Assembly: GCF_024298845.1 (NCBI RefSeq)
Contig: NZ_CP101156.1
Location: forward strand, 1,488,001 to 1,552,000
Reading direction: 5' to 3'
From: Natronosalvus amylolyticus
GTDB taxonomy: Archaea; Halobacteriota; Halobacteria; Halobacteriales; Natrialbaceae
DNA: 64,000 bases
In this document: positions 4,841 through 18,410 of the stretch, in pieces
Numbering within the stretch: the stretch's first letter is position 1
Layout of the letters: each line of letters opens with the position of its first letter
Translations under genes and position numbers: made by a program
Notes under the pieces: generated by a model
Databases searched by the model: none
What the model was told of the DNA's origin: nothing
Seen by the model: only the letters and a program-made list of their open reading frames with translations

Positions 4841-5057
4841 GTGACCGGCAGCTACGAACGGCGCGTACAAAAGTGGGTGTGGCCCGTTTCCGTAACAAAA
4901 CGCTATAGTAGCCCTATCTCGACCCCTCGAGAGGGCGTAATTCACCTCGATCCTGGACAGATTCGTCTCAATCCCGGGGCAGATTTACCTCGAGTGGTTC
5001 TGAAGGCTGGGAAGCGACGGCCACTTTTATATTTCTGTCAGCGGAAGGGACAACCGT

Positions 5058-5780
5058 ATGGAGCTTACCTGGCATGGCCACTCGACGTGGCACGTTACCG
5101 TTGGCGACACCGACCTGTTGATCGACCCCTTCTTCGACAATCCGAAGACTGACCTCGAGCCGGATGACGTCGACGCACCTGACTACGTTCTGCTCACGCA
5201 CGGACACGCCGACCACATCGCCCACGCCGAGGCGTTCCCCGATGCGACCCTCGTCGCGACACCCGAACTGGTGTCGTACTGCCAGGACAACTTCGGTCAC
5301 GGGAACGCCGTCGGCGGCATGGGCATGAACCTCGGCGGCACCGTCGAGTGTGGGGACGCGTACGTGACGATGCACCGCGCTGACCACACGAACGGCATCA
5401 TGACCGAGTACGACGTCGAGGCCGGCATGCCAGCCGGGTTCATCATCTCCGATACGAAACCGACCCAGGTCTCAGACGAGGAGTCGACGACGTTCTATCA
5501 CACCGGCGACACCGGCCTCATGACCGAGATGCGAGACGTTATCGGTCCGCACCTCGAGCCGGATGCCGTAGCCGTCCCCATCGGCGACCACTTCACTATG
5601 GGCCCCTGGCAGGCCGCCATCGCCGTCGACTGGCTGGACGTCGATTACGCCTTCCCACAACATTACGATACGTTCCCACCGATCGAGCAGGACCCGGCGG
5701 ACTTCGAACGCGAGGTGACGGCCACCGGCAGCGACGCCGAGGTCGTCGTCCTCGAGGGCGACGAAACGTTCTCGCTCTGA
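5058..5780 (+). CDS. Metal-dependent hydrolase, metallo-beta-lactamase superfamily (UPF0173 type)
   Basis: 240 aa. The N-terminal WHGHSTW and the metal-binding THGHADH (HxHxDH, about residues 53-59) are diagnostic of the MBL fold. HTGDTGL (about 156-162) supplies the bridging Asp, and FPQHYDTFP near residues 197-205 another His. The overall layout matches the UPF0173/UlaG-like group of L-ascorbate-6-phosphate lactonase relatives; the physiological substrate is unknown. The gene stands alone, 78 bp before osmC. Confidence 0.88.
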
Positions 5781-5858
5781 CGAAGGTCGCGCTCAGCACG
5801 AATCCATTTGGCCGACTCCGTTGCGTTTACGGCGGTGGCTGTCGAGAGGTAAAATGCA

Positions 5859-6254
5859 ATGACAAAAGAAGTCACCACCGTCTCCGAAGCGGGATTCAGC
5901 GCGACGAATACGATCCGACAGTTCGAAACGACCATCGACGCCACCGGCGAGGACGCGCCGGACACGCTCGAGACGCTGTTGGCGACCTACGGAGCCTGTT
6001 ACGTCCCGGCGCTTCGCGTCGGCGGCCAACAACGCGGGGTCGACGACCTCGGGAAGATCGCTATCGACGTCACCGGCGACCTCAACGACGACGACAAACT
6101 CGAGGCAGTCAGTTTTGATATTCGCGTCGAAGCAGACGTCGACGACGAAACCGGCGACAAGATCGTCGACCGCGCGTTCGAACTGTGTAAGGTCCACGAC
6201 GCCCTGAAGGACTCGCTGCACGCCGAGACGAGCTTCGAAGGCGACGCGTTCTAG
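5859..6254 (+). CDS. OsmC family protein
   Basis: 131 aa. OsmC/Ohr-fold proteins reduce organic hydroperoxides with two cysteines, and both are present: GACYVPAL (about residue 47) and ELCKVHDAL (about residue 108). The central beta sheet carries the IAIDVTGDLNDDD stretch. It is a probable cytoplasmic peroxide-protection protein. The start is chosen at the ATG preceded by AGGTAAAATGCA. Confidence 0.85.
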   Translation: MTKEVTTVSEAGFSATNTIRQFETTIDATGEDAPDTLETLLATYGACYVPALRVGGQQRGVDDLGKIAIDVTGDLNDDDKLEAVSFDIRVEADVDDETGDKIVDRAFELCKVHDALKDSLHAETSFEGDAF

Positions 6255-6614
6255 ATCGACTCGATCACGTATTCCTCAGTTCGTGTACGGTAGCAGGCTC
6301 TGGGGAAGGCACTCCACCGAGAGGAGAGGGAGCTAATACGAGCAACCAGCTATCCCTTCAGAAAACCCATCTATACATACCCAAGTGATTGACATATAAT
6401 AGAGAGTGTCAGATTTATACGATGGTCTCGGTTTTCCGCTCCCTCGAGCAAGGAACAATAGAAGCCTATAGCGGCTTTTCAAACCCATTTGAGTTTTCCT
6501 CACGACCACCCATGACACGAATTAGCAAATACTTCGGGATAATAAGACAATTCAAATATAATGTCAATCGAGATATGTTTATGCTGTTGGGTGTCCAATA
6601 CAACATGATCAATC
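6255..6614. other. Gene-free AT-rich stretch
   Basis: This 360-bp stretch is clearly richer in A+T than its neighbours. It holds no convincing ORF on either strand. A TATA-like CAAATATAATG near 6554-6564 could serve the downstream membrane-protein gene with a leader of about 30 nt. No repeat or RNA gene was recognised. Confidence 0.5.
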
Positions 6615-7454
6615 ATGTCGACAAGAGACATCGCCATTGAGACAGCACCATCGTCGTTCAAAGACCGATCTACAATCGGGAAGACTCGAATCGTCGCGTT
6701 CACCCTTGCCCTGGTCACGGCGGCAATCATGACCGTTGCATTCCTGCCAGAGTTACTCGCGACGCTCGTGACCGGATGGACCGGGACTGGTGGAGCAGAA
6801 CTCGGCATCCATCGCCTTCACGTCATGGGAATCGCGGCTGTAGTTGCCGTGTTCCTCCTTGGATTATTTGCACAGGCGTACAAACCGAGAACCCGCATCG
6901 CTTCCATGTGGGGTGCGTTCGTCACGATTCTCGTTATCACCGTCGGCACCGTCTGGTACGGGGTCGGCCGACCCGAGGAGGTACTCCCGTTCATGGCAAT
7001 CACGAGCATCGTGCTGGTTGCCCATCCAGCGGGTCGTACCCTGCTCCGACGCGGCAGTTCCTACAGCCCCGTCATGCTGGCACTGGTCGCCATCGCGGCG
7101 GTTCCGCTTCTGGCGTTCGCGTTCAACCAGTGGAGTCTCTCCACGAGCGCAACTGACCCACACGCACTCGACGGGCACTACGTGATGATGGCCGGACTCG
7201 CCATCGCACCGCTCGCGTACGGATTCGTCGCCGCACTCGGGTTCACCGGCTGGCGGCTGGCCGCCTGGCTCGCCGCGCTGCCGATGACCTACTACGGCCT
7301 CATGTCCATCGCGTTCACCGACCAGTCCGGGTCGACCGGCGTCCTCTGGGGCGCGCTCGCGATTATCTGGGCCATCGCGTTCGTCGCAACCGCAGAGTAC
7401 TCCAGACTCGAGCCCGCGACGCTGATTCGACGGAACGTCACGCCAGCACCCTAA
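6615..7454 (+). CDS. Polytopic membrane protein, function unknown
   Basis: 279 aa with about eight hydrophobic segments, spread from residue ~25 to ~265 (for example AFTLALVTAAIMTVAFL, VMGIAAVVAVFLLGLFA, VILVITVGTVWYG-like and LAIIWAIAFVATAEYS). The short charged N-terminus (MSTRDIAIETAPSSFKDRS) is probably cytoplasmic. I see no transporter signature. The gene follows an AT-rich promoter region and is monocistronic. Confidence 0.75.
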   Translation: MSTRDIAIETAPSSFKDRSTIGKTRIVAFTLALVTAAIMTVAFLPELLATLVTGWTGTGGAELGIHRLHVMGIAAVVAVFLLGLFAQAYKPRTRIASMWGAFVTILVITVGTVWYGVGRPEEVLPFMAITSIVLVAHPAGRTLLRRGSSYSPVMLALVAIAAVPLLAFAFNQWSLSTSATDPHALDGHYVMMAGLAIAPLAYGFVAALGFTGWRLAAWLAALPMTYYGLMSIAFTDQSGSTGVLWGALAIIWAIAFVATAEYSRLEPATLIRRNVTPAP

Positions 7455-13930: not shown

Positions 13931-14692
13931 TTACCGCTCGAGTTCGACCTGCGTGCCGCGTGCTCGACATCGTTCGAGGGCGTGTTTTGCCGCATACCCT
14001 GCGTCGTGTGCGCTCTCACCCCGCCCGACACCCACCTGGAGAGCTACTTCAACGTCCGACTCGACGTGTTCGATAGCATCGACGTAGTCCGCACGCTCGA
14101 GGTCCGGGCAGACGACGATAATGTTGTCACCGCCGACGAAGAACGAGAGGCTGTCGTGGGCGTGGCGCATGTAGCGCATGAGCGAGGCGTAGCCCTGTTC
14201 GATTTCGATGAAACTGTCGAACGCGTTGAGTTCGTCGGTGTACTCGCCGGTCGCGTCGATCACGTCGAAGTGAGCGATCTGGAGGTCCTCGGGCGTTCGA
14301 TACGCAGTATCGATGGTCCGGCCATCAAGGATTTCGCGCCGGTTTTCGTCCTGGGCGCTACCGGCATCCTGAATCAACGAGGTGGCGTCAGAGAGCGCCT
14401 GTGCCGGCGTCGTCCCCGTTGCGACGCCGAGACTGAGCGTGACCGGATAGCGGTTCCCCACCGACTCCTGTAACAGCCGGTGGTCCTCCAGGTCGAGGCC
14501 GTTCGTCACGGCGATCATATTGTCGAAGCGAGTAAAGAAAACGTAGCCGTTCCGGTTGCCGACGAACTGGGAAATGTCGGCATACAGTCGCGACTGGAGA
14601 GTCTGTAGATCCGCCTCGCGTCGCGGCTCCGGGGTTACCGTCCACGGCCCGTAGTTGTCGATCTGAACCAGTGTCACCTGCGTGTTCGTCAC
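13931..14692 (-). CDS. arfA: GTP cyclohydrolase III (ArfA)
   Basis: 253 aa. The archaeal type III enzyme converts GTP to formylaminopyrimidine ribonucleotide phosphate, the first step of archaeal riboflavin/F420 synthesis. Diagnostic pieces are TQVTLVQIDNYGPWTVTPEPRREADLQ at the N-terminus (given here only in part: QIDNYGPW), FFTRFDNMIAVTNG, and the second-half repeat FVGGDNIIVVCP, matching the two diverged cyclase-like palm domains. The GTG start at 14692 is supported by a TATA box 30 nt upstream; a longer ATG frame from 14797 would span the promoter. Confidence 0.93.
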   Translation of the reverse strand: MTNTQVTLVQIDNYGPWTVTPEPRREADLQTLQSRLYADISQFVGNRNGYVFFTRFDNMIAVTNGLDLEDHRLLQESVGNRYPVTLSLGVATGTTPAQALSDATSLIQDAGSAQDENRREILDGRTIDTAYRTPEDLQIAHFDVIDATGEYTDELNAFDSFIEIEQGYASLMRYMRHAHDSLSFFVGGDNIIVVCPDLERADYVDAIEHVESDVEVALQVGVGRGESAHDAGYAAKHALERCRARGTQVELER

Positions 14693-14713
14693 GGTATTGC
14701 TTCGTTTCGAACG

Positions 14714-14731
14714 GTATCGTATAAGCGATAC
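14714..14731 (-). promoter_or_regulatory. arfA promoter: TATA box inside a palindrome
   Basis: On the minus strand GTATCG-CTTATA-CGATAC forms a perfect 6-bp inverted repeat around the TATA-like hexamer, about 30 nt before the GTG start of arfA. This could be a basal promoter with a chance palindrome or an operator for a flavin- or F420-related regulator; the second is speculation. Confidence 0.5.
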
Positions 14732-14854
14732 GTAATCCAGATCTGAGATGGGGTCAGTATCACCTCGTCGGATCGACAATGCAGCATTGTTGCTCACAGT
14801 TGCGAGCGCGAGAAACGAAATCGAAACACGCCAAATTCCACCCCTGGGGCGCTG

Positions 14855-15641: not shown

Positions 15642-15788
15642 ATGCTGAGGTCCCGGCCGATCACCACCTGGCCGACCACGGAAACCGGTACACACGAATA
15701 CATCGAACTCGAACCCGTCCGTATGAACGCAAACACGATCCAACCGAAGGCAGGTCGCGAACCGCGAGGGGCCAACGATGCCAACTAA
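15642..15788 (+). CDS. Possible 48-aa leader ORF overlapping rdfA
   Basis: An ATG at 15642 opens a 48-codon frame that ends with a TAA at 15786-15788, overlapping the first 11 bp of rdfA in another frame. A TATA-like CATAAAATT centred about 28 nt upstream would give a leaderless start. The peptide (MLRSRPITTWPTTETGTHEY...) has no recognised domain. It may be a translationally coupled leader or simply an untranslated leader region; a 21-codon version starting at 15723 is also possible. Confidence 0.3.
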   Translation: MLRSRPITTWPTTETGTHEYIELEPVRMNANTIQPKAGREPRGANDAN

Positions 15789-16374
15789 GGTGGCCCGTCT
15801 GCTCGAGGAAGAGCCACTCGACGGCCTCGGATTCGAACTCGAGCAACGGTGGCTCGGCGAGGGATACGAACGCGAAAGCTTGCGGGCACTCGCCAGGCGA
15901 TTCAACGTCCGGCTCCTCGAAGAACGCCTCTCACAGGCCGGCCAATCCCCGCTCGACGGCGAAGCCGAAAACACGTACCGACTGCTCACCGACGACGACG
16001 TCAGTGCCGGGATGCGTATCCAGGCAGAACGGGAACTCGAACGTGCGGGCATCGACGTCGATAGGTTACGTTCCTCGTTCGTCTCCCATCAGGCGATTCA
16101 CACCTACCTGACGACCGATCGAGAACTCGAGGGTCCGGGGAACGAGACCTCGCCTGAAGAGCGACTCGAGAAAGATACAGACTCGATTCAACGGCTCTCG
16201 AGCCGACTCGCCGCCGTCACCGAAGACACCATCGAGCGACACGCGAGTTCGGGTTCCATCGAACACGAATCCGTCTCCGTCCTCGTCGACGTGAACGTCC
16301 TGTGTGAATCCTGTGGAGAGCAGTACGACGTGCGGACGTTCCTCGAGGAAGGCGGTTGTGGCTGCGAAGAATGA
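15778..16374 (+). CDS. rdfA: Rod-determining factor RdfA-like protein
   Basis: 198 aa. The N-terminal block LLEEEPLDGLGFELEQRWLG, the middle SPLDGEAENTYRLLTDDDVSAGMR and SHQAIHTYLT are the conserved core of the haloarchaeal RdfA family, linked to rod-shape formation in Haloferax. The C-terminus has a four-Cys zinc-ribbon-like cluster (CESCGEQY and GGCGCEE, about residues 178-196). It is followed 101 bp later by an SMC-related gene, the pairing usually seen for this family. How it acts is not known. Confidence 0.85.
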   Translation: MPTKVARLLEEEPLDGLGFELEQRWLGEGYERESLRALARRFNVRLLEERLSQAGQSPLDGEAENTYRLLTDDDVSAGMRIQAERELERAGIDVDRLRSSFVSHQAIHTYLTTDRELEGPGNETSPEERLEKDTDSIQRLSSRLAAVTEDTIERHASSGSIEHESVSVLVDVNVLCESCGEQYDVRTFLEEGGCGCEE

Positions 16375-16443
16375 GCGGCCACGAGTACGGACGGCGTGGT
16401 CAGTCTCGGAGCGAACGGCACAACTGCCCCGATTCGACGTAAC

Positions 16444-16452
16444 CATATAAGT
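16444..16452 (+). promoter_or_regulatory. TATA box of the SMC-related gene
   Basis: CATATAAGT lies centred 28 nt before the ATG at 16476, the haloarchaeal spacing for a leaderless mRNA. This gives the SMC-related gene its own promoter in addition to any read-through from rdfA. Confidence 0.65.
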
Positions 16453-16475
16453 AGGTCCTCCCCCAAAGGCTCCCA

Positions 16476-18410
16476 ATGAGCACTTCGGAAACGACGACAC
16501 GCCCGACGGTAACCGTCAAAAACATCGGCGGTATCGACAGCTCGACGGTCGAACTCACGGACGGCGTCAACGTTCTCACCGGGAAAAACGCAACCAACAG
16601 AACGTCTTTCTTGCGGTCAATTATGGCCGCGCTCGGAAGCAACAAGGCTTCGCTCAAAGGCGATGCCGATGAGGGGTACGTCCGATTGACGATGCAGGGC
16701 GAAACCTACGAGCGTCGGTTCGAACGGCGAAACGGGACAGTCGTCACCAGCGGGAGCCCGTACCTCGAAGATCCGACACTCGCCAATCTCTTTGCGTTCT
16801 TGCTCGAGTCGAACGCCGCCCGCCAGGCGGTTACCCAGCAACGGAACCTGCGTGACGTCATTATGCGTCCGATCGATGTCGACGAAATCGAAGCGCAAAT
16901 CCAGACGACCACCGCAGAGAAGCGAAAGCTGGACCAGGAACTCGAACGGTTAGAAGAGACGAAATCGACGCTGCCATCGCTCGAATCTCGAAAACGCTCA
17001 CTCGAAGACGAGATCGAAGCGACCGAAGACGAATTGGAGACGGCCCGCTCCGAACTCGAGAAAGCCCGTACCGAACGAGAACCCGACGACGAGGCGGTCG
17101 ACGAGAAACTGGACGAACTTCAGCGCGCGCGCAACGAACTCGAGGAAACCCGATTCCAGCAAGAAACCGAGCGACAGAGCATCGAAACCCTGGAAGACGA
17201 ACTCGAGGAACTCCGGGAAGACCTCGAGGAGCTACCGAGCAGTCTCGAAACCGATCCGGACGCCCTCGAGACCGAACTCGAAGAGTTGCGTGAACGGCGG
17301 TCGTCAATCGATGCCGAGACATCGAAACTCCAGAGCATCATCCAGTTCAACGAGGAGATGCTCGAAGGAACGAACCAGGAGATCACAGCTGCCCTCTCCG
17401 ACGAGGAAGCGGCTTCAGTCACCGACCAGTTAGTCGAACCCGACGACGAAGTGGTCTGCTGGACCTGTGGCTCGTCCGTCGAACGGGCCCAGATCGAGGC
17501 GACAATCGATCGGTTACGTTCTCTCCGTGAAGAGAAAGTTCACGAACGAAACCAACTCCGTCAGCAGATCGACGATCGAAAATCGACGATCGAAAACGCG
17601 CGCTCGATCACCGACCGCCGCCAGCGGCTAACCAAGCGCGTCGACCAGACGGAAACGGAGATAGACACGCGCACGGAACGGCTCGAAACGCTCGAATCGC
17701 AAGAGGACACCCTCGAGGAACGAGTCGAAACCCTCGAGGAAACCGTCAGCGAACTCGAGACCGAAAGCGAGGACGAAACCCTCGATCAACAAAAAACCGT
17801 CACGGAACTCGAGTTTCGACTCGAACGAAAACGCGACGAGTTCGCGGACGTCGAAGCCGATATCGAAGATGCAGAAGACGCGGCCGACCGAATCGAAGCC
17901 GTTCGCGACGAACGCGATGCGGTCGCCGAACGCCTCACCGAGTTGCGAACGCGTATCGACCGCATCGAAGAAGAGGCCGTCGAGGCGTTCAACGAGCATA
18001 TGGCCTCCGTGCTCGAGGTACTGGAATACGAAAATATCGAACGGATCTGGATCGAACAGACCGAACAGAACGTGAAACAGGGACGTCGACGCGTCGAGCA
18101 GACGGTGTTCGAGCTCCACATCGTTCGCCAGACCGAAGACGGTCAGACCTACGAGGACACCATCGAACACCTGAGCGAAAGCGAGCGAGAGGTGACCGGA
18201 CTGGTCTTCGCACTCGCCGGCTACCTCGTCCACGACGTGTACGAAACGGTGCCGTTCATGTTGCTCGACTCGCTCGAGGCGATCGATTCGAACCGTATCG
18301 CGCGACTCATCGATTACTTCAGCGATTACGCGGACACGCTCGTCACGGCGTTGCTCCCCGAGGACGCGGCCGCGCTCGACGACGAGTACCGGCGCGTGAC
18401 GTCGATCTGA
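16476..18410 (+). CDS. Archaea-specific SMC-related protein (RdfA partner)
   Basis: 644 aa with Rad50/SMC architecture: N-terminal ATPase half, two long coiled coils of Glu/Leu/Arg-rich heptads (about 135-310 and 340-525) and a zinc-hook-like CWTC (about 328-331) between them, then a C-terminal ATPase half. The P-loop reads GKNATNRT (36-43): the invariant Gly-Lys before Thr/Ser is Asn-Arg. The signature motif is LSESER (about 566-571) and Walker B is FMLLDSLEAID (about 593-603). It is annotated in haloarchaea as an SMC-related protein paired with RdfA; a role in cell shape or chromosome organisation is inferred from that pairing. Confidence 0.88.
   Translation: MSTSETTTRPTVTVKNIGGIDSSTVELTDGVNVLTGKNATNRTSFLRSIMAALGSNKASLKGDADEGYVRLTMQGETYERRFERRNGTVVTSGSPYLEDPTLANLFAFLLESNAARQAVTQQRNLRDVIMRPIDVDEIEAQIQTTTAEKRKLDQELERLEETKSTLPSLESRKRSLEDEIEATEDELETARSELEKARTEREPDDEAVDEKLDELQRARNELEETRFQQETERQSIETLEDELEELREDLEELPSSLETDPDALETELEELRERRSSIDAETSKLQSIIQFNEEMLEGTNQEITAALSDEEAASVTDQLVEPDDEVVCWTCGSSVERAQIEATIDRLRSLREEKVHERNQLRQQIDDRKSTIENARSITDRRQRLTKRVDQTETEIDTRTERLETLESQEDTLEERVETLEETVSELETESEDETLDQQKTVTELEFRLERKRDEFADVEADIEDAEDAADRIEAVRDERDAVAERLTELRTRIDRIEEEAVEAFNEHMASVLEVLEYENIERIWIEQTEQNVKQGRRRVEQTVFELHIVRQTEDGQTYEDTIEHLSESEREVTGLVFALAGYLVHDVYETVPFMLLDSLEAIDSNRIARLIDYFSDYADTLVTALLPEDAAALDDEYRRVTSI

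Follow-up and report, generated by a model that had tools for sequence, protein, structure and literature searches.

Rod-determining factor A (RdfA) of Haloferax volcanii, encoded by HVO_2174, and the SMC-like protein Sph3 are both needed for the rod form, in that deletion of either rdfA or sph3 leaves Haloferax with disk-only, non-motile cells; as regards RdfA, the requirement for rod shape was shown for HVO_2174 only, and synteny of rdfA with a gene for an SMC-like protein was reported for 42 of 54 RdfA proteins (PMC10869688). Each of four sph deletions in Haloferax lowers survival in a gene-conversion assay, and sph2 and sph4 cannot be deleted jointly (PMC11276520). A further report, PMC13286277, assigns plate-shape maintenance to Sph3, which is the opposite of the data in PMC10869688 and PMC11276520, where the sph3 deletion gave no rods. 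Sph proteins are presented in the literature as ATPases whose part in rod shape, and in gene conversion, has been read by analogy with SMC motors. Both families, their synteny, the zinc hook, and the shape and gene-conversion roles are already known. We found no statement in the open-access literature of catalytic-residue loss in most haloarchaeal Sph proteins, of a graded series of such losses, or of RdfA beside methanogen members of the family, although absence there is not proof of novelty; nor did we find a published measurement of ATP binding, hydrolysis or interaction of Sph.

The rdfA-sph pair in Natronosalvus amylolyticus and elsewhere

The window, which is the whole stretch of 64,000 nucleotides analyzed here, contains two adjoining open reading frames on the + strand, rdfA at 15778-16374 (198 amino acids) and sph at 16476-18410 (644 amino acids). 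The first product passes the Pfam PF21811 gathering cut-off at full length (E=1.1e-72, residues 3-197; 244.4 bits versus 27), and the second matches the NCBIfam model NF045487 for the archaea-specific SMC-related proteins, or ASRPs, over residues 16-629 (671.8 bits, cut-off 300). These matches confirm the identities given to the two proteins by a first-pass annotation made from the sequence; its start for the pair, 15642, lies in upstream sequence, as the first start codon of the RdfA frame is that at 15778. The closest named relative of the window Sph, from Natronosalvus hydrolyticus, is 95% identical to it. Neighbors of sph are rdfA and genes for DUF5785 and MmgE/PrpD, the last being the next gene beside the pair and on the opposite strand, with no mre11 next door. 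Upstream of the pair, the opposite strand carries a GTP cyclohydrolase III gene with weak GGDEF-like similarity (13934-14797, -). The genome also encodes a second Sph (C5), which is accompanied by its own RdfA.

A TATA-box-like sequence, ATATAAGTA, is located at 16445..16453 (+), 23-31 nt before the sph ATG, and TATAAGTA/TATAAGTG occurs at a comparable distance before sph in four congeners (L114, L133, L135 and L136). The element, for which promoter function is presumed, suggests that sph has a leaderless promoter of its own, although it follows rdfA. In one member of the same genus (L114, genome G045, about 5000-6632) the two genes are separated by about 1.6 kb; in other relatives they abut.

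An AlphaFold2 model of Sph (mean pLDDT 85.5) showed a confident two-lobed head and long antiparallel helices, and its best Foldseek matches were Rad50 and SMC proteins. As modeled, Sph would have an SMC/Rad50-type fold, with a single head built from the N- and C-terminal halves and an antiparallel coiled coil leading to a CxxC hook. The hook, CWTC at residues 328-331 (17457..17468, +), is flanked on both sides by long helices, and CxxC was present in all 193 of the distinct haloarchaeal ASRPs compared; it should dimerize through zinc, and the first-pass annotation was correct in reporting it. The RdfA model (mean pLDDT 89.6) is helical with a small Cys-bearing tail, and a PDB fold search with it gave no match at E<=0.001. 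The Cys-rich tail noted earlier consists of a C-terminal cluster, CESC-x14-CGC (C176, C179, C194, C196; 16303..16365, +), each Cys of which is at least 90% conserved in 36 RdfAs, and which is probably a small Zn site.

The linkage of the 2 genes, which the first-pass annotation had also proposed, is close and widespread, as is consistent with the published synteny (PMC10869688). In 80 genomes searched for RdfA, rdfA was located within 1 kb of the ASRP gene for 101 of 119 ASRPs, and was not found beside the other 18; the median gap between the two, as measured from estimated gene ends, was about 80 bp. The arrangements were same strand with rdfA first (59) or last (18), convergent (14) and divergent (10), and such adjacency, maintained through changes of orientation, points to a functional tie and not merely an operon. 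Distances among Sph proteins and among RdfA proteins were correlated (Spearman rho 0.88, reached in 0 of 500 permutations), although shared descent contributes part of this, and the nearest RdfA was always one beside the same Sph class (101/101), to which shared descent also contributes. All 7 of the methanogen-type ASRPs with usable flanks had a neighbor matching a methanogen RdfA profile, which was itself built from 4 of the 7; against the haloarchaeal RdfA profile, 6 of these neighbors matched at E<=1.2e-5 and the seventh at 0.002, and profile-profile comparison gave 97% probability (E=8e-11). The presence of RdfA-like genes beside these seven ASRPs implies that the pair is older than the haloarchaea. 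No RdfA was seen in the flanking stretches read for more distant ASRPs (family f41, L097).

The window locus is a routine member of the haloarchaeal RdfA-Sph module, a known cell-shape module. A defense system and a phage origin were both rejected: matches to the PADLOC defense models LmuB, JetC and PtuA were weak and partial (mainly in the coiled coil or P-loop region), with none over RdfA, and PHROGs matches were all weak and to SbcC-like, tail-tape or unnamed phage families.

The altered nucleotide site in Sph and in other ASRPs

As compared with GxNGxGKSS, the Walker A sequence of the window Sph, GKNATNRTS at residues 36-44 (16581..16607, +), has Asn for Gly at 41 and Arg for Lys at 42, with Thr43 unchanged. 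The ABC signature, expected to be LSGGE/Q, reads LSESER at residues 566-571 (18171..18188, +), and Walker B reads FMLLDS at residues 594-599 (18255..18272, +), where Asp598 is kept and Ser599 replaces the catalytic Glu. The register of Ser599 was given by a PDB profile search, in which it pairs with a position of SMC1A; of the three matched chains, one has Glu there and two have Gln. The H-loop region is ALLPED, and neither an H-loop His nor a Q-loop Gln was seen in Sph. The Walker A and Walker B stretches are at their expected N-terminal and C-terminal places, but the P-loop Lys and catalytic Glu of an active SMC-superfamily ATPase are replaced. The first-pass annotation had read the P-loop (as GKNATNRT in place of GxxxxGK(S/T)) and the signature as we do; it had also counted Walker B as kept, which holds for the Mg-coordinating Asp598 but not for the catalytic Glu.

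These departures are highly conserved. The columns invariant across 47 homologues include 8 of the 9 in the P-loop, all six in the signature, and D598 and S599, as against 84 of 644 overall. Among 131 distinct sequences, each of the six Arg codons is used for R42, and both boxes of Ser codons occur at S567 and at S569, so that selection acts on the residue and the DNA is not simply frozen. Chance or sequencing artefact was rejected as a source of the motifs because they are invariant across independent genomes. A halophile composition effect on the P-loop was also rejected, since Rad50 of the same genome is canonical (GVNGSGKST, LSGGER, LILDEPTVFLD); a second SMC-type protein of this genome, in an 899-aa frame, reads GPNGSGKSN. 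Nor is there an alternative conserved lysine at position 37, in the deviant-Walker style (G-K-N), as the clade has R, K, E, Q or N there.

Alignment-based motif counts for the 193 distinct haloarchaeal ASRPs gave three types. The N-R-T type of the window accounts for 135, every one with D-S at Walker B, so that the variant P-loop marks a clade and is not peculiar to this gene, and any suggestion in the first-pass annotation that the locus is unusual is unsupported; both Sph copies of this genome are of the NATNRTS/DS type. A GK type accounts for 43 (D-G 38, D-R 2, and D-S, D-D and D-E 1 each), with DGLGGLA as the Walker B region of the clade, and an NK type for 15 (D-S 12, D-A 2, D-T 1). Thr/Ser43 and Asp598 were kept in all 193, and Glu at 599 was found in 1. 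That protein, L295 (G141:C3:79800-83800, ORF 1061-2974), is of the GK type (AGNWQGKTS, LLLDELGGLD) and is the sole one of the 193 with both the P-loop Lys and the catalytic Glu, which makes it a candidate active Sph. In another haloarchaeal ASRP, L279, Asp stands at the catalytic Glu position. A third clade (L276-L278, L280-L288 and L293) carries an NK P-loop (GPNAANKSS and similar); most of its members have an LAESER signature and DSLGAFD, and in most of them rdfA overlaps or abuts the ASRP gene.

Outside the haloarchaea, the seven methanogen-type ASRPs found beside RdfA, from seven methanogen-related genomes, have the P-loop xxNAxGKT and D-E at Walker B. The canonical methanogen relatives read DELTYLD, in which Glu keeps its usual position and Thr stands at 601. 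Canonical methanogen ASRPs (GKT, D-E) also have a non-GG signature, LSTSE or LSKSE, so that a change in the signature is by itself uninformative on hydrolysis. The ASRPs of genome family f41 (L235-L240, L242 and L243) read APNAKGKSS and VIDDNMNTFD, so that Asp occupies the place of the catalytic Glu.

In a tree built leaving out the catalytic columns, the GK clade and an NK+NR clade were sisters inside the haloarchaea, with the larger NK clade beside NR and one small NK clade nested within it. The deep branching is less certain than this within-haloarchaea pattern, as several outgroup branches are long and meet (a program warning). The nested clade has reverted to Lys (NASNKSS), and Lys is evidently tolerated. 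GK and NK clades without Glu fall between the outgroup and the NR type, and these surviving intermediates suggest a stepwise loss in which Glu and Gly would have been altered earlier and Lys later. A first tree had suggested that Glu was lost just once, and cleanly, on the stem of the haloarchaea, but this was abandoned when wider sampling yielded L295 with Glu and L279 with Asp; the Glu of the basal GK-type L295 means that Glu was lost at least twice, or was lost and then regained.

Readings of the altered site

From the sequences, the Sph head is very probably a repurposed ATPase site that does not hydrolyze, and absence of ATP turnover, taken alone, we regard as likely. The whole statement, that Sph is an RdfA-partnered zinc-hook scaffold without ATP hydrolysis, we hold with somewhat less assurance, as the better bet. 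In ATPases of the ABC and RecA types, change of the Walker A Lys to Arg usually spoils hydrolysis more than binding, and changes of the Walker B Glu trap ATP-bound heads. The scaffold may bind nucleotide without hydrolyzing it: the fixed Thr43 and Asp598 are Mg-nucleotide residues, and nucleotide, if bound, would be kept rather than turned over. The heads would either remain engaged or pair via protein contacts, and ATPase cycling would be replaced by control through RdfA, presumably in direct contact with Sph, and through protein abundance.

It is rather unlikely that nucleotide binding is wholly absent and that the site is conserved purely as a surface, whether structural or for a protein such as RdfA. 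Such a surface would accord with the joint absence of the P-loop Lys, the catalytic Glu, the Gly of the signature and the His of the H-loop, and with the co-variation of RdfA with Sph; yet if no Mg-nucleotide were bound, it would be difficult to account for the invariance of the Mg-coordinating Thr/Ser43 and Asp598 in 193 proteins.

Some ABC-type proteins hydrolyze slowly without the canonical Glu, and Arg is sometimes able to replace the P-loop Lys. Sph could still be an ATPase with an unorthodox site, where Arg42 does the work of Lys and another residue, for example Glu601 (DSLEAID), or Glu568 or Glu570 of the signature in the partner head, polarizes water. E601, E568 and E570 are invariant in the 47 homologues, and the strong constraint on the site is that expected of a working one. 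However, the DELTYLD of the methanogen relatives, with the usual Glu and Thr at 601, indicates that change ran from a standard to a non-standard site, and the GK clade lost Glu with no gain of E601 (DGLGGLA); we consider this explanation unlikely. That Sph is the degenerate half of a heterodimer with an active ATPase subunit, like asymmetric ABC transporters, would fit the several ASRP paralogues of many haloarchaea and the two of this genome, but is quite improbable given that both copies here are of the same altered type, that about 52 of 67 haloarchaeal ASRP genomes showed no GK-type copy at E<=1e-5 (counted by hand, with distant copies liable to be missed at this threshold), and that GK-type copies other than L295 also lack Glu.

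The non-hydrolyzing scaffold is the reading we prefer, and by homology with Haloferax Sph3 and RdfA it would favor the rod form and motility. Deletion of either gene, which the first-pass annotation put forward as a check, is already published for those homologues, with one and the same outcome (PMC10869688). The proposal in that annotation of a scaffold with altered nucleotide use is partly supported overall: the altered site stands, and the scaffold is favored also on the wider evidence. A more general scheme, to which we give slightly less than an even chance, is that haloarchaeal proteins of the Sph2-4 type form a pseudo-ATPase clade of the SMC superfamily, derived stepwise from active ancestors (catalytic Glu and P-loop Gly first, then P-loop Lys) and maintained as such by selection; on this scheme they would serve, in cell shape and in gene conversion, as zinc-hook scaffolds that are static or gated by RdfA, and the RdfA-ASRP partnership would be older than the split between haloarchaea and their methanogen relatives.

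If the NATNRTS type cannot hydrolyze ATP, then the usual loop extrusion or clamp cycling is excluded for that type, leaving a scaffold or cytoskeletal role as the simplest model. The extant graded series (GKT with Glu, GK without Glu, NK, NR) is a natural experiment in the passage from an SMC-type ATPase to a non-cycling protein, and the methanogen RdfA link means that the pair can also be studied in a second setting, a non-halophilic one.

Comparison with known systems

The H. volcanii pair of RdfA (HVO_2174) and Sph3 (HVO_2175) shares with the window its 2 families and the adjoining of rdfA to an SMC-like gene (PMC10869688). The Haloferax pair has a ddfA neighbor, whereas none adjoins the window pair, and the likeness to Sph3 is one of family, with Sph2 and Sph4 as other candidate orthologues of the window Sph. 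The ASRPs, which include Sulfolobus coalescin ClsN (PMC9389158), resemble the window Sph in the full-length NF045487 match, zinc hook, coiled coil and split head. In that study ASRPs are taken to be ATPases, with Walker A at the N-terminus and Walker B at the C-terminus, and no consensus among neighbor genes is reported; in contrast, the Sph2-4 type examined here lacks the catalytic residues, and RdfA is the common neighbor in the haloarchaeal and methanogen-type genomes examined.

Arcadin-4 (Rkd4) is also an SMC-like protein with a published cytoskeletal link, to the archaeal cytoskeleton protein crenactin (PMC10869688). The arcadin-4 model matched Sph in the coiled-coil region only (residues 135-507, 26 bits versus a cut-off of 860), which is no evidence of membership.

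Rad50 and Sph have in common a CxxC zinc hook, a similar fold and a similar N-terminal region. However, Rad50 has an Mre11 partner where Sph has RdfA as neighbor, and its catalytic set of GxxGxGKS, LSGGE and D-E is absent from Sph, which reads GKNATNRTS, LSESE and D-S; the NCBIfam Rad50 model matched Sph over the coiled coil only, at 53.4 bits versus 700. The earlier description of the protein as Rad50-like is apt for hook and fold but not for descent, as phylogeny places ASRPs outside Rad50 (PMC9389158). Sph1 of Halobacterium salinarum (plasmid pHSAL1, L244) is like the window Sph in being an ASRP beside rdfA from which the catalytic Glu is missing (ILLDGI), and differs from it in keeping the P-loop Lys (ASNFQGKSS) and in its LSEGER signature, as a D-G protein of the GK type.
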